From: a virus
Direction: 5' to 3' (one strand)
Virus record (IMG/VR): IMGVR_UViG_3300013108_000151
Coordinates: 1-64,000 of that record
DNA: 64,000 nt
The notes under the pieces are model-generated. The model was not told the origin of the DNA. It made no database searches and saw only the letters and a program-made list of their open reading frames with translations. This document shows, piece by piece, positions 15,713 through 58,283 of the stretch; positions within the stretch are counted from its first letter, which is position 1, and each line of letters starts with the position of its first letter. Position numbers and translations under genes: made by a program.

Positions 15713-16135
15713 TTAATTTTCTAGGTCTTTAGATACTTTACTTTCGAAACTGTCGTATCCGCCCCAGTCGTTGTCGTCTTGATATTCAACACCCATGTCA
15801 TCGTCATAATCTGAACTGCTATGAGGATCGAAGTCGTCATCCTTGCCTAGTATTTCATCCATTAACTTATCTTGTATCCATTCATATGGATCACCGTCTC
15901 TGGCTTTCATAGTACCATAAGGCATATCCCCAGAGTTGCTATACAAGTCAAATAAATCTTGATAGAACTCTGGGTGATCTGATAAATCAAAATCTTCTGG
16001 GCTTCGTTTAAACAAAGCAACTTCTTTTGGGTGTGCTTGAAGTATGTCGTGTACACTTTGGTACGACTTTTCTTTAATCATATTATCACTTACCATTTTC
16101 ATGTAAGTGTTCATTTCTTTTACTATGTTACTCAT
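15713..16135 (-). CDS. Acidic unknown protein, about 140 aa
   Basis: The start at 16135 overlaps the end of the 260-aa gene by eight bases. An N-terminal helical part (NTYMKMVSDNM) is followed by a strongly acidic C-terminal third with many Asp/Ser (KDDDFDPHSSSDYDDDMG). It is probably soluble and partly disordered. It is the last gene of the 23373-15713 cluster, which may encode head-associated proteins. No family is recognised. Confidence 0.6.
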   Translation of the reverse strand: MSNIVKEMNTYMKMVSDNMIKEKSYQSVHDILQAHPKEVALFKRSPEDFDLSDHPEFYQDLFDLYSNSGDMPYGTMKARDGDPYEWIQDKLMDEILGKDDDFDPHSSSDYDDDMGVEYQDDNDWGGYDSFESKVSKDLEN

Positions 16136-16910
16136 CAAATATACTCTCTGTCTTAGCATAAGGTTTTTTATTTTTAACTTGTGCTTTAGTTTTGTTGTTT
16201 TGTTCGTCCTTATCCTCAGAGTCCATGCCTACTGTAATGCCATAAGATTCGCCAAGTGCCCCTTTTACTAATTGTGGGTAATATTTTTTGTTGATGTTGT
16301 GATACATCCATTCACTATCCATAGTGTCTGTGTATCCTTGTTTTCTATTTTTAGCAATAACTAGTTCTACCATTTTAATTTCTTTAGGTGTGCCAAATGC
16401 TTTTGCTAGTAATAAGTTGTTTTCTGAATGATAGTTGTTCTTTTCATTGTCTTTATACAATTGCATTAATGCTTTGCCTTCAAGGCCTTTAGCATCAAAA
16501 TCGTCTTCGTTCTTAATAGGTAGTTCAGGGTCAAATGCTTTCCATTCGTCATATGTTAAGTACATATCTGTATCTGGATCGTAGTACTTTCCTTCTACAT
16601 TATCATAATAAACTACTTTGCCTGAACGTGTCATAATAGGACCTTCTAGCCCATCGCGTGGTTGATACTTTTCTCTATCTATATCTGGAAGTCTAGCCCA
16701 ACCTTCGTTAGTTTTATGTAAGTAATGGTATAATGAATCTAGTTGCATTAATTCTCTTGGTGATAAATGATCACCTCTTCTTTTTAATTCATCAAATACA
16801 GCAATTTCTCTTTCTAGTTCTTCCCTATTCATCGCACCAGGATGTTTGCCTGATTGTGTCCACGGCGATCTGCTTGGGTCGATTTCTTTTATTAGATCTT
16901 TTGCTCTCAT
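16128..16910 (-). CDS. Possible head-internal protein, 260 aa (unknown)
   Basis: It begins MRAKDLIKEID, with an IKE triad at residues 7-9 that would fit the T4 prohead protease cleavage rule (L/I)xE. Two small repeats of YYDxxxGKYYDPDTDMYLTYDEWKAF type (about residues 98-125) look like an OCRE/WW-like tyrosine-rich element. The C-terminus is lysine-rich. It is three bases from the Cys-rich gene upstream. The function is unknown; packaging into the head is inference from the N-terminus and neighbours. Confidence 0.6.
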   Translation of the reverse strand: MRAKDLIKEIDPSRSPWTQSGKHPGAMNREELEREIAVFDELKRRGDHLSPRELMQLDSLYHYLHKTNEGWARLPDIDREKYQPRDGLEGPIMTRSGKVVYYDNVEGKYYDPDTDMYLTYDEWKAFDPELPIKNEDDFDAKGLEGKALMQLYKDNEKNNYHSENNLLLAKAFGTPKEIKMVELVIAKNRKQGYTDTMDSEWMYHNINKKYYPQLVKGALGESYGITVGMDSEDKDEQNNKTKAQVKNKKPYAKTESIFDE

Positions 16911-16912
16911 TT

Positions 16913-17833
16913 TTATTTTCCGTATATCTTTGTTTCTTCGTCCCAGTTAGCAATCATGCTCTTAAGTGTGTCTAACATTTTTTGTAAATCACCTGTGCCT
17001 ACTCTATCACCAGTTCCCATTATTTCTTTACTAAATTTGTATCTTTGTTCAATTGCTACATTTAACTGACCTGCTGTTTTTATTAGCATTGATTTAGTAT
17101 GATTAAGTTGACCTTTGTCTAAATCTCTATAATATTCAGTAGTTCCATGTTTTGCTACCTCGTTAGTTGATTCTTTACGATGGCGTCCTGTATTAAGTTT
17201 TTCAAAAGCATTATTATGAGCATCTTTAAGATCTGATAAAGCACCATGCATATTTCTAAGATCATTAACCATATCTGAACTATTATCTTTATCTTCTATG
17301 TCTGTTAATGCTAAAAGTGTTTTAGAAACTTGGTTTAATTGTTTTTTTAAATTATGAAGTTGAATACCTTTATAATCATTGTAATTCTTTTGTGCTACTT
17401 CACCTACTGCTTTTTTATTAAACTTTTGTACATCTGGATTTTGTTCTCCAGGTACTACTTTTAATGCTCTTGCTACAGCACCTTGTAAGCCTTGAACTGA
17501 TTTAGACATAGTAATAAGTTGATCATGTATGTCGCCTGTTCCAGTTACCGGTTTGCCTTCCCATTCTTCAGCACTATCCATAACACCTAAACGTTTGATG
17601 TGCTTTTCAATATCTACAAGTTTGCTGTATAATTCTTCTAATGATTGATATTTTCTATCATCTTGAAAGTCTTCATTTACTGAATGACAGTCACAACTTG
17701 AACACTCTGGGCCACAAGTACATTCTTCTTTTGTGCCACAACCACAACCACAAGATTCAACTACTTTGTTTTTTTCTTCATTTTGTATTTGTTGTAGTAC
17801 TGAATTTATTTCGTGTATGTCACCAAACTTCAT
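16913..17833 (-). CDS. Helical protein with N-terminal Cys cluster, 306 aa (unknown)
   Basis: The N-terminus MKFGDIHEI has an IHE triad (6-8). Residues 27-50 hold nine cysteines and a histidine within about 24 residues (CGCGCG, CTCG, CSSCDCH), which could bind zinc or an Fe-S cluster. The rest (60-306) is long helical segments with GTGD turns at about 97 and 275 and is coiled-coil-like. The Cys cluster is unlike anything else in the window. It starts one base after the preceding stop, so the genes are in one transcript. No known family. Confidence 0.6.
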   Translation of the reverse strand: MKFGDIHEINSVLQQIQNEEKNKVVESCGCGCGTKEECTCGPECSSCDCHSVNEDFQDDRKYQSLEELYSKLVDIEKHIKRLGVMDSAEEWEGKPVTGTGDIHDQLITMSKSVQGLQGAVARALKVVPGEQNPDVQKFNKKAVGEVAQKNYNDYKGIQLHNLKKQLNQVSKTLLALTDIEDKDNSSDMVNDLRNMHGALSDLKDAHNNAFEKLNTGRHRKESTNEVAKHGTTEYYRDLDKGQLNHTKSMLIKTAGQLNVAIEQRYKFSKEIMGTGDRVGTGDLQKMLDTLKSMIANWDEETKIYGK

Positions 17834-18472
17834 TTACTTGTCCTCTTTTTTGCCCATAGCCTTTTTGATTGCTTTATCTTTAGCGGCCATGTAATCATCT
17901 CCGTCAATGTCGCCATCTCCGTCGTGGTCTTTTTTCTTGCCTTCACTCATATCATGATTTTGTCTAAAATATTTTACAAAATCTTTAATTGTGTCACCGT
18001 CTAAGTAACGAACTAAATCGTCAAACACAGGATGGTCAGCACATTCTAATTCGTCGCATAAATCATAAATTGGATCAGCAAATTCACCAACTGCTTCTGG
18101 AGTGGGCTCTTCTTCTGCTACTGCCGTTTGTGGAGCAATTAAATCTCTAAATTGACTTGAGAGGTCAGCAATTAAATCTTCGTCAACTATGTCCTCGCCA
18201 ACAAGTTTACCTCTGTTGGCATTCTTAGTTGTTCCATCTGTTTCGCCGCTGGGTACGGATTTTGTCTTTTCTCTACCTTTTAAATGATTAGGTTTGGACT
18301 CGTCAATTGATTCAAGTAAATTAGCCATAGCATTTACATCTGGATCGTGATGTTTTTTCTCTTGCTTTGCTTTTTTAATTACTTTAATTTCTTTATGCTT
18401 TTGTGCTTGGTCGCCAGTTTCGCTCATTTCGTTTAACTTGGCTACTAAACTAGAAAATGAATTGTCTTCCAT
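17834..18472 (-). CDS. EF-hand-loop protein, 212 aa (unknown)
   Basis: Near the C-terminus the segment DHDGDGDIDGDDYMAAKD (about residues 184-201) matches a dockerin/EF-hand calcium-binding loop, with Asp at positions 1, 3, 5 and an acidic 12th position. The remainder is acidic and partly disordered, with lysine-rich ends. The N-terminal LNE triad (13-15) fits a prohead protease site. Similar EF-hand tails occur in marine T4-like phage proteins of unknown function. It overlaps the 162-aa gene by one base. Confidence 0.6.
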   Translation of the reverse strand: MEDNSFSSLVAKLNEMSETGDQAQKHKEIKVIKKAKQEKKHHDPDVNAMANLLESIDESKPNHLKGREKTKSVPSGETDGTTKNANRGKLVGEDIVDEDLIADLSSQFRDLIAPQTAVAEEEPTPEAVGEFADPIYDLCDELECADHPVFDDLVRYLDGDTIKDFVKYFRQNHDMSEGKKKDHDGDGDIDGDDYMAAKDKAIKKAMGKKEDK

Positions 18473-18960
18473 TATTTGTCTCCTTTGTTTTCGTTAGCCT
18501 GTTGTAATGCTTTAGCAACCTTAGGATGGTCTGCTAATCCTGGCTTCAACTTGTTAATCTTTTCAGCGGCACCCGTATAGTTACCACCTTTAAATTCAGG
18601 ATGATTAGCAATGGCTATTGCCTTTCTTACATCATCATCTGAAAATTCTTGTTTAAGCTCGTTCATACCTTCTGCTGGAACAGGAGTTGCTACGTCTATA
18701 GCAAGTTCAATATCACTTGGTGTTGATTCTAAGTGATGTTTAACACTTGAAATATAGTCAGCGGCTTTAGTAATTTTAGCCTGTACCCAACCTTCAAGTC
18801 CTTGTGCTTCAGATACATTTTTAAGCATTTTGTGTAGTTCAACGGAGTACTTTGCTAGTTTAAATAAATCTGCTCTAGCCATTTGTACTTCGTGGTCTGT
18901 TTCCATTACACGAGTGTCCATGGATAAATCTTCTTTTACGATTATTTGTTTAGCTCTCAT
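18472..18960 (-). CDS. Helical unknown protein, 162 aa
   Basis: Begins MRAKQIIVKED, nearly identical over its first four residues to the 16128-16910 protein. Predicted helices at 25-60, 62-82 and 105-155, the last containing DVRKAIAIANHPEFKGGNYTGA, which reads like a TPR-like pair of helices. The SD GGGGTT precedes the ATG. It probably belongs to a head-internal or core protein set, but this is inference. Confidence 0.6.
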   Translation of the reverse strand: MRAKQIIVKEDLSMDTRVMETDHEVQMARADLFKLAKYSVELHKMLKNVSEAQGLEGWVQAKITKAADYISSVKHHLESTPSDIELAIDVATPVPAEGMNELKQEFSDDDVRKAIAIANHPEFKGGNYTGAAEKINKLKPGLADHPKVAKALQQANENKGDK

Positions 18961-19012
18961 TTTTTAACCCCGAATTAATTAGTTGTTTAAGTTATTTATT
19001 TAATTTATAATA

Positions 19013-19255
19013 TTATCTCTTAACCATTGGACCACCAAATATGCTTGTACCTTTCATATCTAGGGCATTATCTGTTGGTTTTTGATTCTTAGGTTTAGGA
19101 TGTTTTGGTGCTTTACCCATTTTACCAGGGACTCCGGCATAACTTTTTTGTTGTGCTTTATTTCCAATAGCAATATGTGGGTTTACAACAGAAGCAATGT
19201 TACCACTTGCTGTGGCGCCTGCTGTTGCTGTTTCTATAATATCTTTTATTTTCAT
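19013..19255 (-). CDS. Small glycine/alanine-rich protein, 80 aa (unknown)
   Basis: Begins MKIKDIIETATAGA, with an IIE triad at 6-8. The rest is low in secondary structure and rich in Ala, Gly, Lys and Pro, ending KGTSIFGGPMVKR. Small proteins of this kind recur in marine T4-like phages near head genes. No SD is visible; a TAAATA box ends four bases before the ATG, so the mRNA may be leaderless. Confidence 0.6.
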   Translation of the reverse strand: MKIKDIIETATAGATASGNIASVVNPHIAIGNKAQQKSYAGVPGKMGKAPKHPKPKNQKPTDNALDMKGTSIFGGPMVKR

Positions 19256-19277
19256 AGTATATTTACTTATCCATTAA

Positions 19278-19502
19278 TTAAATGAAAAACTTTTTTAATA
19301 ATTGGCTATTAATACTTCTATCAGCCCTACGACTTGCTTTTTTCATCTTTTTTGCTTTTGCCCTAAGTACTTTTAATTCTGCTCTAGTTAGTTCTGGCCT
19401 TGTTGTAAAGCCTAGATAACGTAATGCTCTGTACTTAAAGTTTCCTTTCTTTTTGAAGTTGTTAATCGATACTGTTTCATGCTTTAGTTCCTCGTTTTTC
19501 AT
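19278..19502 (-). CDS. Small very basic protein, 74 aa
   Basis: More than a quarter of the residues are Lys or Arg, in two clusters (KKKGNFKYRALR, RAKAKKMKKASRRADR). This suggests nucleic acid binding or a packaged DNA-compacting protein. It overlaps the 3' end of the HAD-CCA gene by 26 bases in another frame. No family is recognised. Confidence 0.55.
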   Translation of the reverse strand: MKNEELKHETVSINNFKKKGNFKYRALRYLGFTTRPELTRAELKVLRAKAKKMKKASRRADRSINSQLLKKFFI

Positions 19503-21909
19503 TTTCCCAACTCCTTCTTAATAGGGCAACTCGTCCTTCACCTTTTACTTGTAGTCCGAGTTTATTAGCCTGTTTTGATGTTTCGCCCGGTTTAACATCT
19601 TTAGTTGTATTATATGGTGTTATAATTCCAACACCTTCATCTAAGTCTAACATGTCTGCCATACGTTTCATAGCAAAACTTTTAGATTCTGTAGTTACAG
19701 CATTTAGTAAATCGTCTGCTGATAAGTCATAATTGTTTTGTTTCCACAAGTCTTTTAATTTGTTTAGTGTAGCACCTAACCCAGGCCCAGGTGTCATGCC
19801 GTGTTGTATAAGATCTTTTCCTGTTATAGGAAACTCCGGCATTGTAAATTGTTCTATATAACTTGCTAGTTTTTCATTGCTTTGTATCTTTAATAGATTA
19901 CTAACTTTTACTTTATCGTGCCCATCAATAACCAAATGCTCTGCTTGTTCTTTTGTTAATTTTCTATTTTTGTAAGTTGTATAAAACTTTAAATCTTGTG
20001 CTTCGGCGTTACTTAATTTCCATTTGTTAGCAATAGAAGTATCATCAACTAAAACTGCTAATGCTATTACAGGATCTGTATTACCTTTTATATCTGTTAA
20101 TCTTGCTATCTTGCCTGTGTCTAATCCTATTACCTCGTCAACACCTGTTGCTGACATATAGGACAATGTTTGAATTACACTATGTCCTACTAATAGTTTG
20201 CCCATCTCCTGCCATATTCTCTCTACAGAAACTTGAGACAATCCTTTAGTGTTATCTTTAATAGCCTTTAATGTTTCTTTATCCCAAGTAGGACTTTCTA
20301 ATTTACTTTGAAATCTAAAGTATCTTAGTATTCTTAAGTAATCTTCTTTAATACGTTCTACTGGATCACCAACAAACTTACTAACTTTATCTTGTAAGTC
20401 GTCCATGCCTTCAAAGTAATCATACAAGTTGCCATCAAAGTCTAAACTCATAGCATTGTAAGTTAAGTCTCTACGTTTAGCATCTTCTTTCCAGTTACGA
20501 ATAAACTCTACGTCAGCATGTCGACCATCTGTATTAGTGTCTGCTCTTAACGTTGTAATTTCATATCCTTCGCCGTCAATAATTGCTGTAAGAGTTCCGT
20601 GTTCCATTCCAGTAGGCTTATGTTTAATACCTGCTTTGTCTAGTATAGCAACCATTTCGTCTGGTGTGGCATCTGATGCCAAGTCAATATCTTTAGGTGT
20701 TTTACCTAAAGCAATATCTCTAACAGCACCGCCAACTATTCTTATTTCAAACTTGTTCTTTTTGAATACGCTATCTAATTTTTCTAACGCTGGGTTCATT
20801 ATATTGTTAAACCCTTCTGTATCTAGTTCTTCACTTTCAACAGTAAACTCTTTGTTAGAAGTTTTAAAGTCTGCTTTCCTCATTACTGTTTTAGCAATAA
20901 GATCTAATTCTTTGTTATTTTTATCCCATACTAAAGCAAAAGGTACATTAACATCAGTTCTCATATCTTTCATTACTGCTTCAGCATCAGGACCCATTTG
21001 AGCAATAGGTCTTGCCCAGTATTTGTATTCTTGTTTAAATAAACGTGTTAGTTCTGCTGGTGTAATAGGTTTTTCGTTTCTAGCATCATTTACTCTATCT
21101 AAAAAATGTCTAGTAAATTCTACATCAATGCCTACTTTAGAAAATAGTCTGTCAGCATATGCTTCAATTTGTTTTAAGTCTTGTGGTGTAACATCTTCGT
21201 AAACTTTTCTTACATACTTCTTGTAATTTAATCCGTGTCCTGAACTAGGCCTATAGCCCATCTTAGCACCTTTAGGCTTTGGGTATCTTAGTTTTCCTGG
21301 AGTAGACTTTTTTACTTTTAAAGGCCTTCTAAATCCACCATAAGTTAATCCGCTGATACTTAATGGTCCACGTTCGTTTAAATATTGCTCTTTATAATCG
21401 TCCAAAGCATTTATAACTACATTCAACGAATCTTCATCTGCTTGATACTTAATACCGTAACCGCCTGCTTTATTCCAATTTTCAATGTTTAGTCCTCTGT
21501 CGTCAATTAATATATTAGGCGTACCATCTGGTTGTTTAGCAAATCTATCTTTGTTTGCTACTATAAGAGTGTTTGTAGGTTTAATTTTTAACTTTCTGCC
21601 AATCCAGTCAATTTTATGCTTTTTGCTGTTTTCATGATCATTTCTTAGTGGCGAGGAACATATACTATACGAGCCAAAACGATTTATAACTATTTGAAGT
21701 AATTTATCTGCTGTAGGAAATTTTTCTAACTTAGCAAAGAAGTCTGTGCCTATCATTCTATTAAGAGTAGAATTTACTTTGTCTTGGGGTATGTCTCTAT
21801 AAGTTTTAACACCTACCATTTTTGCCCAAGCACCAAAGAAGTCTGCTAGTACTCCATCCATGTCAACATAAACTATAGGCTGTTTGTTATCTACTTCACT
21901 TAGTTTCAT
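19477..21909 (-). CDS. HAD phosphatase - linker domain - CCA-adding/poly(A) polymerase fusion, 810 aa
   Basis: Residues 13-165 form a HAD domain: VYVDMDGVLADFF gives the DxD nucleophile pair, and ILIDDRGLNIENW gives the C-terminal acidic motif. Residues 235-350 are a separate unknown domain (VEFTRHFLDRVNDARNEKPIT). Residues 385-620 are a class II tRNA nucleotidyltransferase/poly(A) polymerase head. It has IVGGAVRDIALG and DIDLAS (metal-binding DxD), RRDLTYNAM, and ERIKEDYLRILRYFRFQ. The N-terminus MKLSEV holds LSE. Together this would repair RNA 3' ends: a phosphatase plus a CCA/A-adding enzyme. Whether it is packaged or acts in the cell is not known. Confidence 0.85.
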   Translation of the reverse strand: MKLSEVDNKQPIVYVDMDGVLADFFGAWAKMVGVKTYRDIPQDKVNSTLNRMIGTDFFAKLEKFPTADKLLQIVINRFGSYSICSSPLRNDHENSKKHKIDWIGRKLKIKPTNTLIVANKDRFAKQPDGTPNILIDDRGLNIENWNKAGGYGIKYQADEDSLNVVINALDDYKEQYLNERGPLSISGLTYGGFRRPLKVKKSTPGKLRYPKPKGAKMGYRPSSGHGLNYKKYVRKVYEDVTPQDLKQIEAYADRLFSKVGIDVEFTRHFLDRVNDARNEKPITPAELTRLFKQEYKYWARPIAQMGPDAEAVMKDMRTDVNVPFALVWDKNNKELDLIAKTVMRKADFKTSNKEFTVESEELDTEGFNNIMNPALEKLDSVFKKNKFEIRIVGGAVRDIALGKTPKDIDLASDATPDEMVAILDKAGIKHKPTGMEHGTLTAIIDGEGYEITTLRADTNTDGRHADVEFIRNWKEDAKRRDLTYNAMSLDFDGNLYDYFEGMDDLQDKVSKFVGDPVERIKEDYLRILRYFRFQSKLESPTWDKETLKAIKDNTKGLSQVSVERIWQEMGKLLVGHSVIQTLSYMSATGVDEVIGLDTGKIARLTDIKGNTDPVIALAVLVDDTSIANKWKLSNAEAQDLKFYTTYKNRKLTKEQAEHLVIDGHDKVKVSNLLKIQSNEKLASYIEQFTMPEFPITGKDLIQHGMTPGPGLGATLNKLKDLWKQNNYDLSADDLLNAVTTESKSFAMKRMADMLDLDEGVGIITPYNTTKDVKPGETSKQANKLGLQVKGEGRVALLRRSWENEKRGTKA

Positions 21910-21918
21910 TTAACTTCC

Positions 21919-23373
21919 TTATACAGTATCGAAGTTTACATCTTCAAATTGATAAGTTGACTCTGCTTTAATCTTTTTTAACAACATCATAATACGTTGT
22001 GTTTCTTCGGGGTCTTTTGATATTAGTTCTTTAAAAGCATCTGCGGCCGCAATCATTTGATTACGTGAATATTGTGTGTCACCGCGTTTCATTTTCATTA
22101 ATACTTGTAGTAACTGTTGTTTGTCTGCTACACCTGGAAGTTGTTTAGCAATCATTTGTGGACTAACGCCACCTGATAACTTGCCATCTTCGTCGTTAGG
22201 CGAGTCAGGTGTTACTAGTTCTTCTTTCTTTAATGTTGGTGTATCTATTCTTTGGTTAACCTTAGCAGGATCCATTCCCATTTTAGATGCTTGTCCGTAC
22301 TTTGCCATTGTCTTTTGTAAGTAAGCGGCTTTTCTTCTCAACCTAGCGGCTTTTTTAGCGGCAGGTGAAATTCCTTCTGTCATTACTGGGTCAAAGTTAT
22401 CTAGATAAAATCTTATTAATGTTTTAGTATCTATATCTTTAAATCCACCAGCAATGTTAGAAGCATACCAGCCTAAAGCATGGCGAAACGGTTTGCCAGC
22501 ATTTTCTTTTTTCTTTCTTTGTAAAACAGAGTGTAGTCTTTCTGCGGCATTTCTATATCCACGTCTGTTTAGTACAGGTGCTATTTTTCTTTTTAGCATT
22601 CCGTATGGAGTTTCTTCTTCAACAGATTCACCTTTTGCCCTTTTGGTGGCTACGGCATGCATTACACTCTCAGCATCTTTACCATAACGTTTTTCAAAGT
22701 CGCCTTTATGTTTTTTTAGTTTCTTAAAGTTTGCTTCTTTGCTACGTTTCTCTCCGCCGCTTAATTTTCGTTCTGTTGTTGTTTCTGCCAGACGTGTATC
22801 CAGTACCTGCTGAATTACCTCGTTATACGAACCGAACAAATCGGTTATAAACTCTTTCCTTTGTTCATCGTCTAGTGTTTTATACTGGTCTCTTAGTTGT
22901 GTGGCAGAAGAAGCCGGAGCACCTAGTACTGTGAAATTAACAGTTGGCGCCACGATTAAGTACCCATGCTTCTCATACCCTTCTAGTTCTTCAATTTTTT
23001 TGTTGTCTATTGGTTGGTAATATGTTGGGGTTCCATCTTTCTTAAGACCTGGTTTGAACCTTGGGTTTTCGTCCATGTCCTTTTGCCCTACAGCAAATAT
23101 AACTGCTGTATCTGGGCTAACACCTGACAGAGTATTTTCAGGTTTATATGGTGATGTTTCCTGTTTAATTGCTTTACCAGGAACACCAGCAAGTAACATC
23201 ATAGCACGTTTTTCTTTAAATGTAAACGGTGATCCAGGGCCTGTTTTATTGCTTGTACAAATGAAAGTATTATTTTCGCCAAACTTCTTGGCTATACTGT
23301 CATAAACAGCCTTGTGTCCTTTGTGAAATGGATGAAACCTGCCACCATATATTGCTATAATCTTACTAGCCAT
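21919..23373 (-). CDS. NMNAT-like nucleotidyltransferase with long C-terminal extension, 484 aa
   Basis: The first 190 residues form a cytidylyltransferase-like nucleotide-binding domain: IYGGRFHPFHKGHKAV contains the HxGH motif and SSATQLRDQY matches the ISSTxIR motif. These enzymes adenylylate NMN, pantetheine phosphate or similar. The remaining 290 residues are basic, helical and of unknown function (KKHKGDFEKRYGKDAESVMHAVATKRAKG, then AAKKAARLRRKAAYLQKTMAKYG). It lies ten bases before the HAD-CCA fusion, so the two large multi-domain genes are co-expressed. A late-type box at 23395-23402 precedes it. The exact substrate cannot be told from sequence. Confidence 0.8.
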   Translation of the reverse strand: MASKIIAIYGGRFHPFHKGHKAVYDSIAKKFGENNTFICTSNKTGPGSPFTFKEKRAMMLLAGVPGKAIKQETSPYKPENTLSGVSPDTAVIFAVGQKDMDENPRFKPGLKKDGTPTYYQPIDNKKIEELEGYEKHGYLIVAPTVNFTVLGAPASSATQLRDQYKTLDDEQRKEFITDLFGSYNEVIQQVLDTRLAETTTERKLSGGEKRSKEANFKKLKKHKGDFEKRYGKDAESVMHAVATKRAKGESVEEETPYGMLKRKIAPVLNRRGYRNAAERLHSVLQRKKKENAGKPFRHALGWYASNIAGGFKDIDTKTLIRFYLDNFDPVMTEGISPAAKKAARLRRKAAYLQKTMAKYGQASKMGMDPAKVNQRIDTPTLKKEELVTPDSPNDEDGKLSGGVSPQMIAKQLPGVADKQQLLQVLMKMKRGDTQYSRNQMIAAADAFKELISKDPEETQRIMMLLKKIKAESTYQFEDVNFDTV

Positions 23374-48536: not shown

Positions 48537-48743
48537 TTAATATCGAGGAATATTGGCCATTGCTCTTTGAGTATCGGCATCGTTTTGGGCTGTTTGGACA
48601 GCCTTTTTTAACTCAGAATTTTCACGTCGTAAGCGTTTATTTTCAGTAATAAGATCGTCAATTCGTCTTTCCAAATCCAACGGGCCTCTATCATCAGGTA
48701 AACTGGCTATGTATTCATTTGCTGTCATTTTCTCTTTTGTCAT
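48537..48743 (-). CDS. Coiled-coil small protein, 68 aa
   Basis: Start at 48743 (MTKEKMTAN) has GGAG about ten bases upstream and an ATGA overlap with the halogenase stop. A long amphipathic helix (LERRIDDLITENKRLRRENS, then ELKKAVQTAQNDADTQRAMA) has strong heptad character. Function not recognised. Confidence 0.65.
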   Translation of the reverse strand: MTKEKMTANEYIASLPDDRGPLDLERRIDDLITENKRLRRENSELKKAVQTAQNDADTQRAMANIPRY

Positions 48744-49840
48744 AACATATTCTCCTTGAGCAAGTTCCAACTGTGTTTGCTCATCAATCCTTGGTGGCCG
48801 TGTTTACTATACTGTTTAATATCGGCTAAGGATTGCTCTTTGTATTGTTTAAAGTGATCCCAGTACGGACCTTTAGCACTATTAGTTCCATATAAAGCAT
48901 TCACCCATTTATGTATGCCTTCATATACTTTAGACATTAGCCTGTTATACACTTTAGGCTTATGACGTAATGCTATTAACTGTTTTATACTTGCCTGTGC
49001 TATAAAGTTCGCTGTAGCATTTAATGGTTCAATAAATCCAGCACTAATACCAACAGCAACAACATTGCCAACCCATTGCTCTACTGGCCTACGTGATTTA
49101 AATTTAATTACATTTTCTGCTTCAAGTCCTGTTTTTTCTGTAAACTCTTTTTTAGCATCTTCTATACTAATAAACTTACTACTAAACACATAACCATAAC
49201 TCATTCTACTTTGTAAACTAATACTCCACATCCACCCAGCATCCATCGTTTGTGCTCTAGTAAAAGGTTCGTATCGGGGCTCTCCGTTTGCCACTATAGC
49301 ATGATCATTAATAAGCACATCACTTTCAATATGTTTAACACCAACGTGTTTACTTAATATTCCACTTTCGCCTGTAGCATCAATAAACATATCAGTATCG
49401 TTGTAATCTTCTAAAGTAAAGTCTCTAGGAATAATTTTAAAATTAGGTTTGCTAACACAATGCTCTTTTAATAGTTCGCAAAATTTAGGAGCATCAATGT
49501 GATAACTAAATGTTTGACGTTGCTTTGTTGCTAGATTATTATCTTCATTTGCGGCATAGTATATCCAGTTATCATGGCTCCATCCTTCAAACACGTTACC
49601 ATATTTGAAGTAGCCATTAGATCTATCAACTAACTCTTGGTCAGTTATTCCTAGTATTTGACTAATCTCGTTGATAACTGGAATAGTGCTTTCGCCTATT
49701 CGCCTAATAATAGTGTTAGGGTTATTATACATTACTACTTGTTCACCATTTTCAACAAGGTATAGGGAAGAGATCCAACCAGCAACACCATTACCAACAA
49801 CTTGTACAGTTGTTCCGACATCGAATATTGTATTAGTCAC
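48740..49840 (-). CDS. Flavin-dependent tryptophan halogenase-like protein
   Basis: 366 residues (bacterial enzymes are about 500-530). VVGNGVAGWISSLYL is the GxGxxG FAD site (about 11-25), GESTIPVINE matches the GExxxP motif, and FKYGNVFEGW holds a Lys where the catalytic lysine of PrnA lies. GWMWSISL matches GWxWxIP except for the final Pro. Enzymes of this family halogenate aromatics with reduced flavin and chloride. Copies occur in marine phages, with unknown substrate. Neighbours are coiled-coil and GroES-like genes. Confidence 0.85.
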   Translation of the reverse strand: MTNTIFDVGTTVQVVGNGVAGWISSLYLVENGEQVVMYNNPNTIIRRIGESTIPVINEISQILGITDQELVDRSNGYFKYGNVFEGWSHDNWIYYAANEDNNLATKQRQTFSYHIDAPKFCELLKEHCVSKPNFKIIPRDFTLEDYNDTDMFIDATGESGILSKHVGVKHIESDVLINDHAIVANGEPRYEPFTRAQTMDAGWMWSISLQSRMSYGYVFSSKFISIEDAKKEFTEKTGLEAENVIKFKSRRPVEQWVGNVVAVGISAGFIEPLNATANFIAQASIKQLIALRHKPKVYNRLMSKVYEGIHKWVNALYGTNSAKGPYWDHFKQYKEQSLADIKQYSKHGHQGLMSKHSWNLLKENML

Positions 49841-51979: not shown

Positions 51980-52489
51980 TTATCTTAAGAACTCTGAGAA
52001 GTCTAAACTGTAATACATTGGATTAATCCTATTAATACCTATTTTGTATAATACAAAACTAGATACACTAGATCCTCTGCCTACACCCCATACTATATTA
52101 TTCTCTTTCATAACTTGTATCAAGTAGTACATAAAGTTTAATAAGGGCAATAAGTTACGTTCCTGAAACATCATTAGTTCTTTTCCGGCTCTCTGTAACT
52201 CTGCATCACTATTACATTGTTCTAATACCCATTTTGCTATATCAAAGTCTATATATTCTTTGGGCATAAACCAATTATTTTGATTATTTTTATCAAAATC
52301 TTCAATACTTGTATTAATGGGCACATATTGTTTTAACTTTGGTACATTGCTATATAAATCTTCTACTGCTTTATTAAATTTACTAGCATCGTCAAGTGTA
52401 ATTGTACTCATATCAATCTTAGGATTAGAATAGACTAGTTTCATAGCCTCTTCCTCATTTAAATAAACTTGTCCGTATTGATCTTTCAT
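51980..52489 (-). CDS. DnaE (DNA polymerase III alpha)-like fragment, 169 aa
   Basis: The C-terminal stretch NNIVWGVGRGSSVSSFVLYKIGINRINPMYYSLDFSEFL matches the conserved GxGRGSxxxSLVAYxLxIxxxxPxxxxLxFxRFL region of DnaE. The gene stops right after it. The upstream part (KWVLEQCNSDAELQRAGKELMMFQERNLLPLLNFMYYL) also fits DnaE. The PHP domain and the catalytic aspartates are missing. It cannot polymerise DNA, but might bind a host replisome partner. ATG 52489 is preferred over a TTG at 52507. Confidence 0.75.
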   Translation of the reverse strand: MKDQYGQVYLNEEEAMKLVYSNPKIDMSTITLDDASKFNKAVEDLYSNVPKLKQYVPINTSIEDFDKNNQNNWFMPKEYIDFDIAKWVLEQCNSDAELQRAGKELMMFQERNLLPLLNFMYYLIQVMKENNIVWGVGRGSSVSSFVLYKIGINRINPMYYSLDFSEFLR

Positions 52490-52496
52490 GTTTATA

Positions 52497-52763
52497 TTAC
52501 TCGCCAATATCTATTGGGTCGGTATTTTCTGGGTCTTTCTTTGGATCATGTTTTGGATCGTCTTCTTTTTTAACTTTTAACATATCCATACTTCTTTTTG
52601 CTAATGCTTCAGATGTTTCAAATACCATTGCTTGTACTTGATTACATACTGCTTGATTACCAGATTGCCTAGCACTTGTTAGACGAGCATTTAGTTTGCT
52701 TAGTCTTTTAGTTAACTCGTCTATGCTTAGTTCATTTAAATCTGGTGATAATGGATTGTACAT
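52497..52763 (-). CDS. Unknown charged protein, 88 aa
   Basis: N-terminal LNELSIDELTKRLSKLNARLTSARQ helix pair, then a lysine/aspartate-rich C-terminus (KKEDDPKHDPKKDPENTD). Overlaps the MazG gene by one base, so co-transcribed under the promoter at 53210-53239. No family is recognised. Confidence 0.6.
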   Translation of the reverse strand: MYNPLSPDLNELSIDELTKRLSKLNARLTSARQSGNQAVCNQVQAMVFETSEALAKRSMDMLKVKKEDDPKHDPKKDPENTDPIDIGE

Positions 52764-53176
52764 TATAAGTCGCCATCCTTGCGATTCTCACTATACCAAA
52801 CATCAAAGTCGCCATCTGGGTAACGTGATTTTAACTTGTGTACATTTTCAGCAATCACTTCATTAGGGTCCAAACCCAATGCCCGACAAGAACTAATCCA
52901 ATACCAAATAATATCGCCGAGTTCTCGTTTAGCATGAAAGATTGTGTCCTCATCCAATGGTTTACCTTGGAACACACATTTTTTAACAATTTCACTGAAT
53001 TCTCCTCCTTCACTAGCCATTCCAATCGAGCCAGTTAATAGTAGTGCTATGTTTACGCCTGTTGTATTTTCTAATACTTTTAATTGGCCAGTTAATGAAC
53101 CCGTGTTGTTTGATTCATTAGATGTAACTTTTGCTACAAAATCTTTGTAAGCATTTAAATCGATTTGTTTTGACAT
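52763..53176 (-). CDS. mazG: MazG-like nucleotide pyrophosphohydrolase
   Basis: 137 residues, single MazG domain. GMASEGGEFSEIVKKCVFQG gives the ExxE pair and KRELGDIIWYWISSC gives the ExxD pair that bind Mg2+; AENVHKLKSRYPDGDF is the family's C-terminal helix. It hydrolyses NTPs or (p)ppGpp-like compounds and is common in cyanophages and pelagiphages. GGAG precedes the start. It lies with a small gene and the DnaE fragment downstream. Confidence 0.9.
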   Translation of the reverse strand: MSKQIDLNAYKDFVAKVTSNESNNTGSLTGQLKVLENTTGVNIALLLTGSIGMASEGGEFSEIVKKCVFQGKPLDEDTIFHAKRELGDIIWYWISSCRALGLDPNEVIAENVHKLKSRYPDGDFDVWYSENRKDGDL

Positions 53177-53209
53177 TGATTAACTCCATTAATAATCATA
53201 CTATAGCAT

Positions 53210-53239
53210 AGTATAACACTAAATGGTGTATAAAGTCAA
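53210..53239 (-). promoter_or_regulatory. Sigma70-like promoter for the MazG unit
   Basis: TTGACT (53239-53234), 18 bases, TATACT (53215-53210) on the minus strand, 34 bases before the ATG at 53176. Confidence 0.7.
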
Positions 53240-53262
53240 GTAAAGTTTAAGAAAATTTGGAA

Positions 53263-54456
53263 TTATGCTACTGTACAACCTTGATTTGAAACAACTGTCC
53301 AACCTACTGAAGTAACATAAACTAACATAACAGTATCTTGAGCATCTTCAAATGTAATAGTTGATCCGTTAGCAAATGTTGTAGGTGTAAGTGTAGCATT
53401 ACCGCCACCATCTACTGCTAATGTAATAATCTTTATTTGGCCTACTGTGCCATTTGCTAGTGTTAAAGCCGCCGCTGATCCTGTTGTAGTAACTTCTGTA
53501 ACATGTGTTGTTAGATTAACTGCTCCAGCACCTGATAATGCTTGATGAGATCCAACTAAAGCACCTGTAAATTTAGTTGAATATATGTTACTAAACTTTT
53601 TAGTTGTGCTACCTAAAGGTCTAGTGTTAGTAGCGTCAGGTAGTATAGTACCAGTTATAGCATTTCCACCATTTCTTAATAGTCTATTACTATCTGCCTC
53701 GTCGGCGTGTATATCAACCTTTTTCCAAATACTTGTAGTACCGTCGTGTGTAGCGTTAGCAACATAAATCGCATCGCCATCTACTGCTATTTGCCCAGCC
53801 TTATCGCCTGCGGCTCCTGTGCCTGATTTTGGTGATGCTGTTTGTTGTATCTGAAGAACGTCACCGTGTATTACATTTGGTGCTCTGTTTAAGTCTTCAA
53901 TTGCTACTGTAGTTCCAGCATCAATAGTTGAAAATTTAAATCTATATTTTCCTGTTGTAGCAAAACTAATTTGTCTACTTGTGCTATTGTAGTCAGCAAG
54001 TTCGCTAATACCAATTGTACATTGTGTAGGAAGTGTTACTTTGTGAGCCGTGTTTGCTAAATCAACTTCAACAGTCACTTCACCGTATTTTGTTGTTGCT
54101 GGCCAGTTGCTAAATGATAAATCTATAGTACCACTTGTTTGAACTGTTTGGAAAGAACCAGCGGAGAAATCAATTGCTGTAGCACCAGTTAATGTACCTT
54201 TATTAACTGTTGTTGCTGACATATCTTTAAGTTCAAAGTCTTCCATTACAGAACCAGCACCGTCATTTGATAATGTTGTGCCAGTTAAAGCACTCTTAAC
54301 TATTACTTTTGCCTGTAAATCTTCTAACTCAGTTTTTGCTGAAGTTAAGTTAGTCTTAATATTATTAAAATTATCTCTAAATCCCTGAGAGTCGTTATCC
54401 TGCCCAGCAACTGGAAAGGTTACGCTTATATTGTTAGGGTTAATGCTACTTGCCAT
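53263..54456 (-). CDS. Tail fibre-like protein, 397 aa
   Basis: The start is at 54456 with CGGAG upstream and a late-type box at 54477-54484. The N-terminus SQGFRDNFNNIKTNLTSAKTEL resembles the attachment-type helix seen in the other fibre proteins here. The body is Gly/Thr/Ala/Ser-rich beta sheet (GTLTGATAIDFSAG, DATNTRPLGSTTKKFSNIY), and the C-terminus ends in a compact beta domain. These properties fit tail fibres or receptor-binding proteins. No enzymatic motif. Confidence 0.75.
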   Translation of the reverse strand: MASSINPNNISVTFPVAGQDNDSQGFRDNFNNIKTNLTSAKTELEDLQAKVIVKSALTGTTLSNDGAGSVMEDFELKDMSATTVNKGTLTGATAIDFSAGSFQTVQTSGTIDLSFSNWPATTKYGEVTVEVDLANTAHKVTLPTQCTIGISELADYNSTSRQISFATTGKYRFKFSTIDAGTTVAIEDLNRAPNVIHGDVLQIQQTASPKSGTGAAGDKAGQIAVDGDAIYVANATHDGTTSIWKKVDIHADEADSNRLLRNGGNAITGTILPDATNTRPLGSTTKKFSNIYSTKFTGALVGSHQALSGAGAVNLTTHVTEVTTTGSAAALTLANGTVGQIKIITLAVDGGGNATLTPTTFANGSTITFEDAQDTVMLVYVTSVGWTVVSNQGCTVA

Positions 54457-54476
54457 TTTCTATTCTCCGTATACTG

Positions 54477-54484
54477 TATTTAGT
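54477..54484 (-). promoter_or_regulatory. Late promoter-like box (ACTAAATA)
   Basis: ACTAAATACAGTATACGGAG on the minus strand, 20 bases before the ATG at 54456. Same core as at 23395-23402. Confidence 0.5.
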
Positions 54485-56801
54485 TCGGTGTGTCCATAAT
54501 TGTTTCTCTTGGGAACTTGAGATATGTGTCACCTGTATTCCAGTTTGTTTCTTCACTATCAACATTACCAAAAAAGCTCGTATTAGCACCCTCAAACGTT
54601 GTTGTGTCGTTATCAAACGTGGTTTCTGTTGTAGTTGTCCACTTTTGTGTGGATTTATTAAAATTCTTACTTCTACTGTTATCCCAAAGCAATCTATCTA
54701 CAGTAAAAGATGTTTTTTGTAATTCTTTTGCTGTATTTACAGCATCTAAGTAATATTTAACATGACCCGATTTGCCAGGTTTAGTATAACATAAAACTAC
54801 TGCCGGAACATATCCTAGTATTTCGCCATCTGCTTGAGTACTTCTCATCCATAAAGGTAATACTCTACTATCTTGATATCCTATTCCGTCAATTAATACT
54901 TTCCTCATAATTTCTATGCCGCTTGGAAATAGTTTAGTTTTGTTTTTAACATCACCTGTGATTAGGTTTGTGTTACCTTTAGTTATCTCATCAACAGTTA
55001 GTGGAGCATTATAATTGGATATTGTAGTTGCCGCATTGGCCGTAACTGCTACGTTACCCGGAACAAGTTTTCCATTTGAATTTCTTTCTGTTTGTCTATC
55101 AACAATGTCTACATAAACTACTTCGTATATAACTTTGTCTGTGTCAGGATCAACTGCTCTTGCTGTTTTAATCTCTCCGTGATTTAACTCTTGCTTGTAA
55201 AAGTTTTTCTGTAATACTTTCATGTATTCAGAACTTTCTTTAGGAGCAAGGCCGTGTGCTAGTAACATTCTAGCATCATGTTGTAATCCAAAATGAGGAT
55301 CATTTCGTCTATAAATTAAATCTAATGGAATATTATTAGTATTGTTTAGAACACCTCGCCATATGTCTCGTTGTTCTTGTAAAGATTGATTAACAAGATA
55401 TACATTTTCATATGGCTTATAGTTTTCATTTTTAACTGATATAGTAAATGTTCTTTCCGCTCTAATATCACCTCTGGCATTAAGTGCCTCTATGGTTACT
55501 TTGGTTGACTTATCAAATGTAGTTGTTTTCTTATCGTATGTTGTAGTATTATCGTCTGTTGAAAATGTTCCAAATCCTGGAACACCTTGTATACTACCGT
55601 CTGATAATAATTTTAATCCTTGTGGCAATCCACTTGTTGAACCAGGCTTAACTCTATAACGGAATGTTTCAGGTTGGGAACTAGTTACTTCTACGTATAG
55701 AGTACTAGCCTCTCCACTAGTAACTGATCCTAAGTTAGCAGGTGTTGTCCACTTAGGAGTAATTTCGCTATCAATAACAAGATTTATTGTAAACTCCATA
55801 TCATTGTAATAAGCGGCATCATCTCCTTTTGAAACTCTTACTGTAAATTTATATTGTTTTGTAATGTCTGTTATTTCAGGTAATGAACCAGTAATCCAAC
55901 CAGTTGTAGAATTAATAGATAATCCTGGAGGTAGTGTTCCAGCACTTATACTATAAACTGATGGTGTACCATCAAAGTCTCTACTGACTATTTGTTGTTG
56001 CCAATTGTTATTGTGTAATACATTGTCAAATACTTTTTGTCCATTTAATATTAATGGTGGATGTCTAACTTCAGCGTCTGCTGTAAATAGTTTTGTGTCT
56101 GCTGTTAGACCATCAAAACTTGCTCTTAAATTTTCACTAGATCTAACATCAATAGAGAATTCTCTTAATGATACGTCCTTGCCATCAGTTAACGAAACAG
56201 TAAATTTATAGTTCTTACTAATCCAACTGTCGGTAAAATCAAAACTATATAAATCAAAAAATGTTTGGTCAAACCCAGCATCAGGTGTTCCTTCTATTCT
56301 AGTTGGAACAATTTCTCCAAATACTTCACCACTGGAATTCATTTCTACACCAGGAGGTAATTCTCCATCTACTATTGTAAATGTGTAAGTATCATCTGGG
56401 TCTGGATCGTGTGCTGTTAATTGTTTTGAAATTTGTTCACCGTCTATAAATGTTCCTAAAGTACCTCCAGCGGTAACAAACATAGGAGCATCTTGACCTG
56501 TTACTGTTAATGTAAATGTTCTATCAGTTACAATATTATCTGCTACTGCTCTAACGGCAAACGTAGATGTAACATCCTGCCCTACTTCTTGAGGAATACC
56601 TGCTACGTCAACTTTAGTAGTGGGCTGTCCTTCAATAACACCGTCGCGTCTAATTAACAATCCTGATGGTAATGAACCTGCTATTAAGGAATAAACGATA
56701 TCAGAACCGCCTGCTGTTGCGATAACAGGAAGGTTATAATACTCGTTCTCTTGGATAGTACCAAGGTGTCCGGCGGGTGTTGTCCATACGGGTTTACTCA
56801 T
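54480..56801 (-). CDS. Large multi-Ig-like fibre protein, 773 aa
   Basis: At least four repeats of about 95 residues with the pattern Y.L..G.LP.GL.I...G.I.G.P: YSLIAGSLPSGLLIRRDGVIEG (about 41-62), FTIVDGELPPGVEMNSSGEVFG, YSISAGTLPPGLSINSTTGWITG, and FRYRVKPGSTSGLPQGLKLL. These are cadherin/Ig-like (dystroglycan-type) beta-sandwich modules seen in phage fibres. A C-terminal unique region from residue 470 follows. The ATG at 56801 begins five bases after a late box without an SD, so the mRNA is probably leaderless. Likely a virion surface adhesin. Confidence 0.82.
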   Translation of the reverse strand: MSKPVWTTPAGHLGTIQENEYYNLPVIATAGGSDIVYSLIAGSLPSGLLIRRDGVIEGQPTTKVDVAGIPQEVGQDVTSTFAVRAVADNIVTDRTFTLTVTGQDAPMFVTAGGTLGTFIDGEQISKQLTAHDPDPDDTYTFTIVDGELPPGVEMNSSGEVFGEIVPTRIEGTPDAGFDQTFFDLYSFDFTDSWISKNYKFTVSLTDGKDVSLREFSIDVRSSENLRASFDGLTADTKLFTADAEVRHPPLILNGQKVFDNVLHNNNWQQQIVSRDFDGTPSVYSISAGTLPPGLSINSTTGWITGSLPEITDITKQYKFTVRVSKGDDAAYYNDMEFTINLVIDSEITPKWTTPANLGSVTSGEASTLYVEVTSSQPETFRYRVKPGSTSGLPQGLKLLSDGSIQGVPGFGTFSTDDNTTTYDKKTTTFDKSTKVTIEALNARGDIRAERTFTISVKNENYKPYENVYLVNQSLQEQRDIWRGVLNNTNNIPLDLIYRRNDPHFGLQHDARMLLAHGLAPKESSEYMKVLQKNFYKQELNHGEIKTARAVDPDTDKVIYEVVYVDIVDRQTERNSNGKLVPGNVAVTANAATTISNYNAPLTVDEITKGNTNLITGDVKNKTKLFPSGIEIMRKVLIDGIGYQDSRVLPLWMRSTQADGEILGYVPAVVLCYTKPGKSGHVKYYLDAVNTAKELQKTSFTVDRLLWDNSRSKNFNKSTQKWTTTTETTFDNDTTTFEGANTSFFGNVDSEETNWNTGDTYLKFPRETIMDTPN

Positions 56802-57614: not shown

Positions 57615-58283
57615 TTAATGTAAATCAACCCAAGCACCATTGGCTCTGCCTTTGAACTTATGGGCCGTACTATCATAATAGATCATACCGTTTGTTGGTG
57701 AACCTGGAGCCGTTCCTGGATTGTGTAGTGTGTGATTAGCACTTACAGAAGTACTTGCTGTAATTGTGCCACCAAATATTGTTAGCCATTGTTTAGTAGC
57801 ACTACCTAAACTCTTTTGAGCATCATCTGTAGGTCTAAGATCACTTGCTATTGCTACATGACCTGTTCCTGCTGGATCAAGTGTAATGCTTTCGTTAGTT
57901 GAAGTAGATGAAATTGTACTAGCATGAATTGACAAGTCTTCTACTACTAGTGTACCTGTTGTAGCATTCCATGTCATTCTAGCATCATGGCTTACGTCAC
58001 CGTCAGCATCCATATAAAGTACAGCATTGTCAGTGTGTGCTTCAATTCTTAAACTTGTTTGGGCGTCAACTACTACAATACCAGTCCCGTCAGCATCAAG
58101 TACTAAGTTACCGTTTGTATTAGTTGATTTAATTTTGTTACCGGATATATCAATATTTGTTCCTGTCGCAGATGCGGCATATATCTCATCAAAGTTATCA
58201 TTAATTTTATCAAAGGCTATTCTTAACGGATCACCTGTCCCGTCATTTGCTGAACTACCTAGATTTACAGTTTGTTTTGCCAT
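57615..58283 (-). CDS. Fibre protein, 222 aa
   Basis: N-terminus LGSSANDGTGDPLRIAFDK with NDNFDEIY is the clearest form of the motif shared with the 256-aa neighbour. The C-terminus contains APGSPTNGMIYYDSTAHKFK and ends in RANGAWVDLH, parallel to a similar passage in the neighbour. The rest is beta-rich (SLRIEAHTDNAVLYMDADG). Perfect TATAAATA lies 26 bases upstream (58309-58316). Very likely a virion fibre. Confidence 0.8.
   Translation of the reverse strand: MAKQTVNLGSSANDGTGDPLRIAFDKINDNFDEIYAASATGTNIDISGNKIKSTNTNGNLVLDADGTGIVVVDAQTSLRIEAHTDNAVLYMDADGDVSHDARMTWNATTGTLVVEDLSIHASTISSTSTNESITLDPAGTGHVAIASDLRPTDDAQKSLGSATKQWLTIFGGTITASTSVSANHTLHNPGTAPGSPTNGMIYYDSTAHKFKGRANGAWVDLH

Follow-up and report, generated by a model that had tools for sequence, protein, structure and literature searches.

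The start peptides of a gene cluster in this T4-like phage resemble the peptide with which T4 loads its head, and the phage therefore probably carries ready-made enzymes and delivers them together with its DNA. The cluster comprises nine genes that lie side by side on the minus strand (15713-23373) of the window, a 64-kb stretch of a 64.9-kb viral record whose genes include those for a phage DNA polymerase, a clamp loader, baseplate/tail-fibre proteins and an endolysin; no near-identical match to the window was found among phage records. We consider it quite likely that the products of the cluster are internal head proteins of the T4 type, which would be packaged via an N-terminal and probably protease-cleaved capsid-targeting peptide.

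The initial annotation reported an (I/L)xE motif within the first 15 residues of five of six neighbouring proteins, and all five motifs were found at exactly the residues claimed: IKE at 7-9 of a 260-aa protein (16128-16910), IHE at 6-8 of a 306-aa protein (16913-17833), LNE at 13-15 of a 212-aa protein (17834-18472), IIE at 6-8 of an 80-aa protein (19013-19255) and LSE at 3-5 of an 810-aa fusion protein (19477-21909). The denominator did not stand, because a small ORF encoding a 74-aa basic protein with neither motif nor tag (19278-19502) had been left out, and the fair count is five of seven. The sixth neighbour, a 162-aa protein (18472-18960), has VKE in place of (I/L)xE. The N-terminal tags read MRAKDLIKE (16884-16910) in the 260-aa protein, MKFGDIHE (17810-17833) in the 306-aa protein, MRAKQIIVKE (18931-18960) in the 162-aa protein, MKIKDIIE (19232-19255) in the 80-aa protein, where cleavage is predicted after E8, and MKLSEV (21892-21909) in the fusion. 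L/I-x-E within approximately 10 residues, as in the T4 CTS, is present in four of these (genes 16128-16910, 16913-17833, 19013-19255 and 19477-21909); the 212-aa protein has its motif only at 13-15, and its tag assignment is weak. Another weak candidate is gene 15713-16135, whose probable real start is an internal ATG (MSNIVKEMNTYMKMVSDN), as judged from orthologues that start MKKTIAEEL, MKKTIQEEL and MSRLAEEL.

Three of the tagged proteins have no assigned function or only distant matches. Residues 84-122 of the 260-aa protein match phrog_13298, to which KVP40.0154 and further proteins of Vibrio phages are related, and the 162-aa protein has a DHEVxMA...GLEGWVQAKITKA domain with weak matches in Kyanoviridae and in the phages Melnitz and immuto. 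Shortly past its tag, the 306-aa protein, which has no assigned function, contains a Cys-rich stretch (residues 28-50, CGCGCGTKEECTCGPECSSCDC) that resembles a small metal-binding region. The 212-aa protein has an acidic segment, DGDGDIDGDD, close to its C-terminus.

Among predicted gene starts, (I/L)xE occurred in residues 1-15 of 5/7 genes between 16128 and 21909 versus 8/88 elsewhere in the window (Fisher one-sided p = 4e-4). The loose motif was found in 13% of random 15-residue stretches, so the earlier caution about chance hits was justified: the triplet by itself is too weak, and the real signal is the whole of the first 6-10 residues. A stricter pattern, M[KRL][ILVAF]x[EDQ][ILVF], matched 6/95 gene starts in the window, five of them in the cluster, against a background of 2/451 internal Met codons and 0.3% of all internal positions; five of the six genes fall within 9 consecutive genes, a clustering that was reached by 4/5000 shuffles. 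This pattern was composed after inspection of these cluster genes, and the independent support therefore comes from its clustering in two distant relatives, with four matches within nine consecutive genes in G007 (7/5000 shuffles) and six in G018 (0/5000 shuffles). Furthermore, an N-terminal profile trained solely on G007 and G018 proteins from other families ranked 19477-21909 first, 19013-19255 second and 16913-17833 sixth among the 95 window genes; the same profile gave low scores to the MRAK starts, and a permutation test at a low profile threshold was uninformative (19 observed, 18.5 expected).

Thirty IMG/VR loci with relatives of the 810-aa protein were compared. In relatives at 55-60% identity, tags are kept both on orthologues and on unrelated neighbours, and the orthologous tags of the close relatives read MKIKDIIE, MRIKEIIE or MKIKDITE and, for the 162-aa protein, MRAKQIIRE or MKARDILKE. 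In two loci (L008, L021) the fusion is split, and both halves are tagged (MRINEVILHEE on the CCA gene, MLIREIISE on the HAD gene). Rearranged fusions are tagged as well, with CCA-HAD in G018 starting MKIFEVTE and HD_4-CCA-HAD in G007 starting MRLHEF, and the middle domain, which the window protein carries internally, stands at the N-terminus and is tagged in G007 (MRLDEV) and G018 (MRIFEV). By simple count, [ILVFM]xE lies near the start of 8/8 distinct CCA-first and 9/12 HAD-first N-termini; the other three HAD-first N-termini (Melnitz, immuto and L013) have a candidate tag past a likely later start. In five other large phages (CcrColossus, DSS3P8, Gurke, Phosso and Atu_ph07), the CCA enzyme starts with only a short, untagged leader. 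Judged from these sequences, the tag belongs to the N-terminus and not to the protein family. The cytidylyltransferase/NMNAT-like gene at 21919-23373, which lies within the range given in the initial annotation, fails as a tag bearer: no tag is seen in the window phage or in its closest relatives (L001-L004), and tagged orthologues occur in L007, L010 and L016. Outside the main cluster of G018, a zeta-toxin/AAA_33-like kinase (L065:16664-17353) is tagged MKIHDILERE and is another cargo candidate.

In T4, gp21 cleaves after L/I-x-E, ten CTS residues are enough for targeting, with residues 4 and 7 acting mainly in targeting and residues 8 and 10 in processing, and CTS loading of varied proteins by T4-like phages has already been suggested (PMC9026906). 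As with T4 IPI-IPIII and Alt, proteins that are otherwise unrelated begin with a short peptide that closes with (I/L)xE, and relatives encode a gp21-type protease and gp23. Unlike in T4, the proposed cargo extends to CCA-adding, HAD and nucleotidyltransferase enzymes. The tags also differ from those of the T4 internal proteins (MKTYQEFIAE in IPII and IPIII): they mostly have no aromatic residues, their spacing is one residue shorter, with hydrophobic residues at 3 and 6 versus 4 and 7 in the T4 CTS, and MKLSEV has its LSE at 3-5 only. Many have the form M(K/R)(I/L)xE(V/I), nearer to T4 gp24, which is likewise cut by gp21 according to its record note and whose start, MAKINELLRE, is close to MAKINEII in L005 and MKINELLGE in G007.

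Two relatives that carry the fusion gene, G007 and G013, encode both gp21 (PF03420) and gp23 (PF07068). Neither protein turned up in the record that contains the window or in the close relatives G001-G003, all of which are fragments; a PF03420 search of the 64.9-kb record gave no match and is uninformative, because 14 control genomes gave none either. Across 77 loci with the relatives' gp23, including G007 and G013, the gp23 segment L(N/A/T)E-(S/N)ATAGATQAGNIATLNKVILP shows hardly any variation. At the matching place, T4 gp23 reads FLTE-AEIGG, which we take to be the site where T4 cuts. The 80-aa protein 19013-19255 carries DIIE-TATAGATASGNIASV in register with this segment, and its residues 8-23 (19187-19234), ETATAGATASGNIASV, match ESATAGATQAGNIATL in the relatives' gp23. 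Its score against gp23 was 56, the highest among the 95 window proteins (34 for the runner-up), and was reached by 0/1000 shuffles against either relative. The 80-aa protein reproduces the putative gp23 cleavage site and the arm that follows it. Among 27 contigs with the relatives' gp23, one (G045, 342 kb) matched, by the middle domain only.

Published mass spectrometry of cyanophage S-CREM2 virions lists 52 proteins (Table 3 of PMC10665884) and provided a test. The 219 S-CREM2 genes were translated and searched with a motif derived from the T4 CTS, and 26 of the 52 virion proteins were set aside (24 structural proteins and two large endolysins). The motif was present in 5/26 detected non-structural or hypothetical proteins versus 1/167 undetected proteins (p = 1.7e-4), and the association held when all 52 listed proteins were used (p = 0.003). 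The tagged proteins are a SAM hydrolase (MKDFDSFLEE), a kinase (MKRFDAFLTE), a cytidylyltransferase (MKNFSSFLTE), ORF13 and ORF136. According to the published accounts consulted, the cytidylyltransferase was detected in virions of S-SM1, S-SCSM1, S-CREM2 and S-SZBM1, and other enzymes accompany it in cyanophage virions. We read its N-terminus in S-SCSM1 (MKSFLQFLKE), S-CREM2, S-SM2 (MKSFFQFLSE), P-SSM2 (MKSFSQFLTE) and S-CRM01 (MKLFNQFFKE); all five copies have a T4-type CTS. The cyanophages differ from the window phage in that these accounts report no CCA fusion there, and the papers searched, for which alone this holds, name no CTS or packaging signal for the cyanophage virion enzymes. The table speaks to the presence of the tagged proteins in virions and not to their cleavage, and the S-CREM2 authors regarded co-purification with CsCl-purified virions as possible (PMC10665884). 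For immuto and Melnitz, a literature search found no virion proteome.

Two further S-CREM2 proteins were noted. ORF160 (L096:28342-29235), listed in the virion by mass spectrometry (PMC10665884), copies the different gp23 arm of its own phage (GATGFTGAAAPEGPVAGYDPLM against GADGFTGAAAPGGPNAGFDPVM), with a score of 95 against S-CREM2 gp23 (next 40); in ORF160 and in 19013-19255 the arm copy could be a shell-binding or protease-decoy device. The Cas9-like virion nuclease gp12 (L094:7704-10313) has a CTS-like FASFMAE at approximately residues 19-25, off the annotated start, and that start may be wrong.

The common N-terminus might instead dock the proteins to a phage machine other than the head, such as a replication, RNA or membrane complex. 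We think this unlikely: in favour of docking, nucleotide and RNA enzymes are prominent in the tagged set and the fragment shows no gp21, whereas the capsid-arm mimic, the likeness to T4 internal proteins and gp24, and the listing of tagged enzymes in S-CREM2 virions all indicate the head. T4-type N-terminal targeting is supported by these observations, by gp21 and gp23 in two relatives with the fusion gene, and by tags on unrelated proteins that follow gene splits and domain swaps.

The HAD-CCA fusion named in the initial annotation was borne out by domain matches in 19477-21909. An NT5C/HAD 5'(3')-deoxyribonucleotidase domain (21472-21879, residues 11-146, E 3e-9; phrog_2643) is followed by a middle domain with a VEFTRHFLDR motif (20851-21186, residues 242-353) and by the PolyA_pol head domain of a CCA-adding enzyme (20383-20745, residues 389-509, PF01743, E 1.5e-32), and PF12627 also matched (E 1.9e-8). 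GGAVRD and DID motifs were read in the CCA part, and the catalytic motifs of both enzymes are intact. The domain order is HAD-middle-CCA in the window, CCA-HAD in G018 and HD_4-CCA-HAD in G007, so that the family combines several disparate enzymatic domains in shuffled order, as polyvalent proteins do. Those proteins (Iyer et al., 2017, PMC5512222) and P1 DarB (PMC9024508) are likewise multidomain and domain-shuffled, and their packaging and injection have been predicted or demonstrated. LPD23 is present in one tagged protein of a relative. The unifying feature here is a short CTS-like tag, unlike in the polyvalent proteins, and the P1 Dar proteins have no common N-terminal consensus. Two short modules recur: NTTxDVKPGExxxQAxKFG on different tagged proteins (G007 52415-56065, G018 66489-67013 and the C-terminus of 19477-21909), and ARHNCDNPGPKTKARYWSCRxW at the ends of G018 76607-77980 and G007 307278-307694.

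The tags could also load proteins into the prohead that then serve as scaffold or remain in the shell, without ejection. Several cluster proteins are small and have no assigned function, and the arm mimic might belong to the shell as a minor component; however, the fusion keeps its HAD and CCA active-site motifs, no role in assembly is obvious for enzymes of this kind, and T4 IPs and Alt are known to leave the head by ejection (PMC9026906), which makes this reading improbable. That the motif reflects chance or a common effect of gene-start composition is barely credible, since the frequency of the loose triplet in random sequence is countered by conservation in diverged relatives, by clustering in three genomes and by transfer with gene splits.

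For T4-type targeting, we propose that a 6-10 residue N-terminal peptide (M-K/R-hydrophobic-x-acidic-hydrophobic...E) would bind the prohead scaffold core, that a gp21-type protease would probably cleave behind the glutamate of (I/L/V)xE, and that the processed protein would remain in the head and exit with the DNA upon infection. For the window phage, packaging, cleavage and ejection, and their purpose, are inferred from sequence. The cargo would include the HAD-CCA fusion, with predicted activities in tRNA 3'-end repair and nucleotide dephosphorylation, and would probably guard tRNA and nucleotide pools in the first minutes. A CCA-adding enzyme present at entry could mend tRNAs whose 3' ends defence nucleases have cut, and a virion-borne one would suggest tRNA repair at infection time zero; a cytidylyltransferase/NMNAT delivered at entry could restore NAD.

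More tentatively, and with somewhat more doubt than confidence, marine T4-like phages may share a transferable head-loading code (IP-type and gp24-type) that pre-packs a set of enzymes for tRNA-end repair, NAD and nucleotide metabolism, kinases and SAM hydrolase, with some cargo attaching to the shell by imitating the cleavage site and arm of the capsid protein. If so, the injected protein set could be read from N-termini alone. The tag-based packaging proposed for the cluster offers a mechanism for a recurrent puzzle, the metabolic enzymes in purified T4-like virions that authors could not distinguish from contamination, and makes the injected proteins of uncultured phages predictable from sequence.

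No T4 late promoter (TATAAATA) was found upstream of the cluster, which counts against the proposed packaging, and this sequence is under-represented on both strands of the window (4 copies versus 12.2 expected in shuffles). In Melnitz it stands 40 nt ahead of the cluster, and it also precedes KVP40.0154, at a distance of 26-33 nt. In the window, one copy lies 26 nt upstream of a tail-fibre/baseplate gene (57615-58283). In addition, the window encodes a tryptophan-halogenase-like gene (48740-49840, phrog_2928), a GTP cyclohydrolase and a UDP-glucose dehydrogenase.
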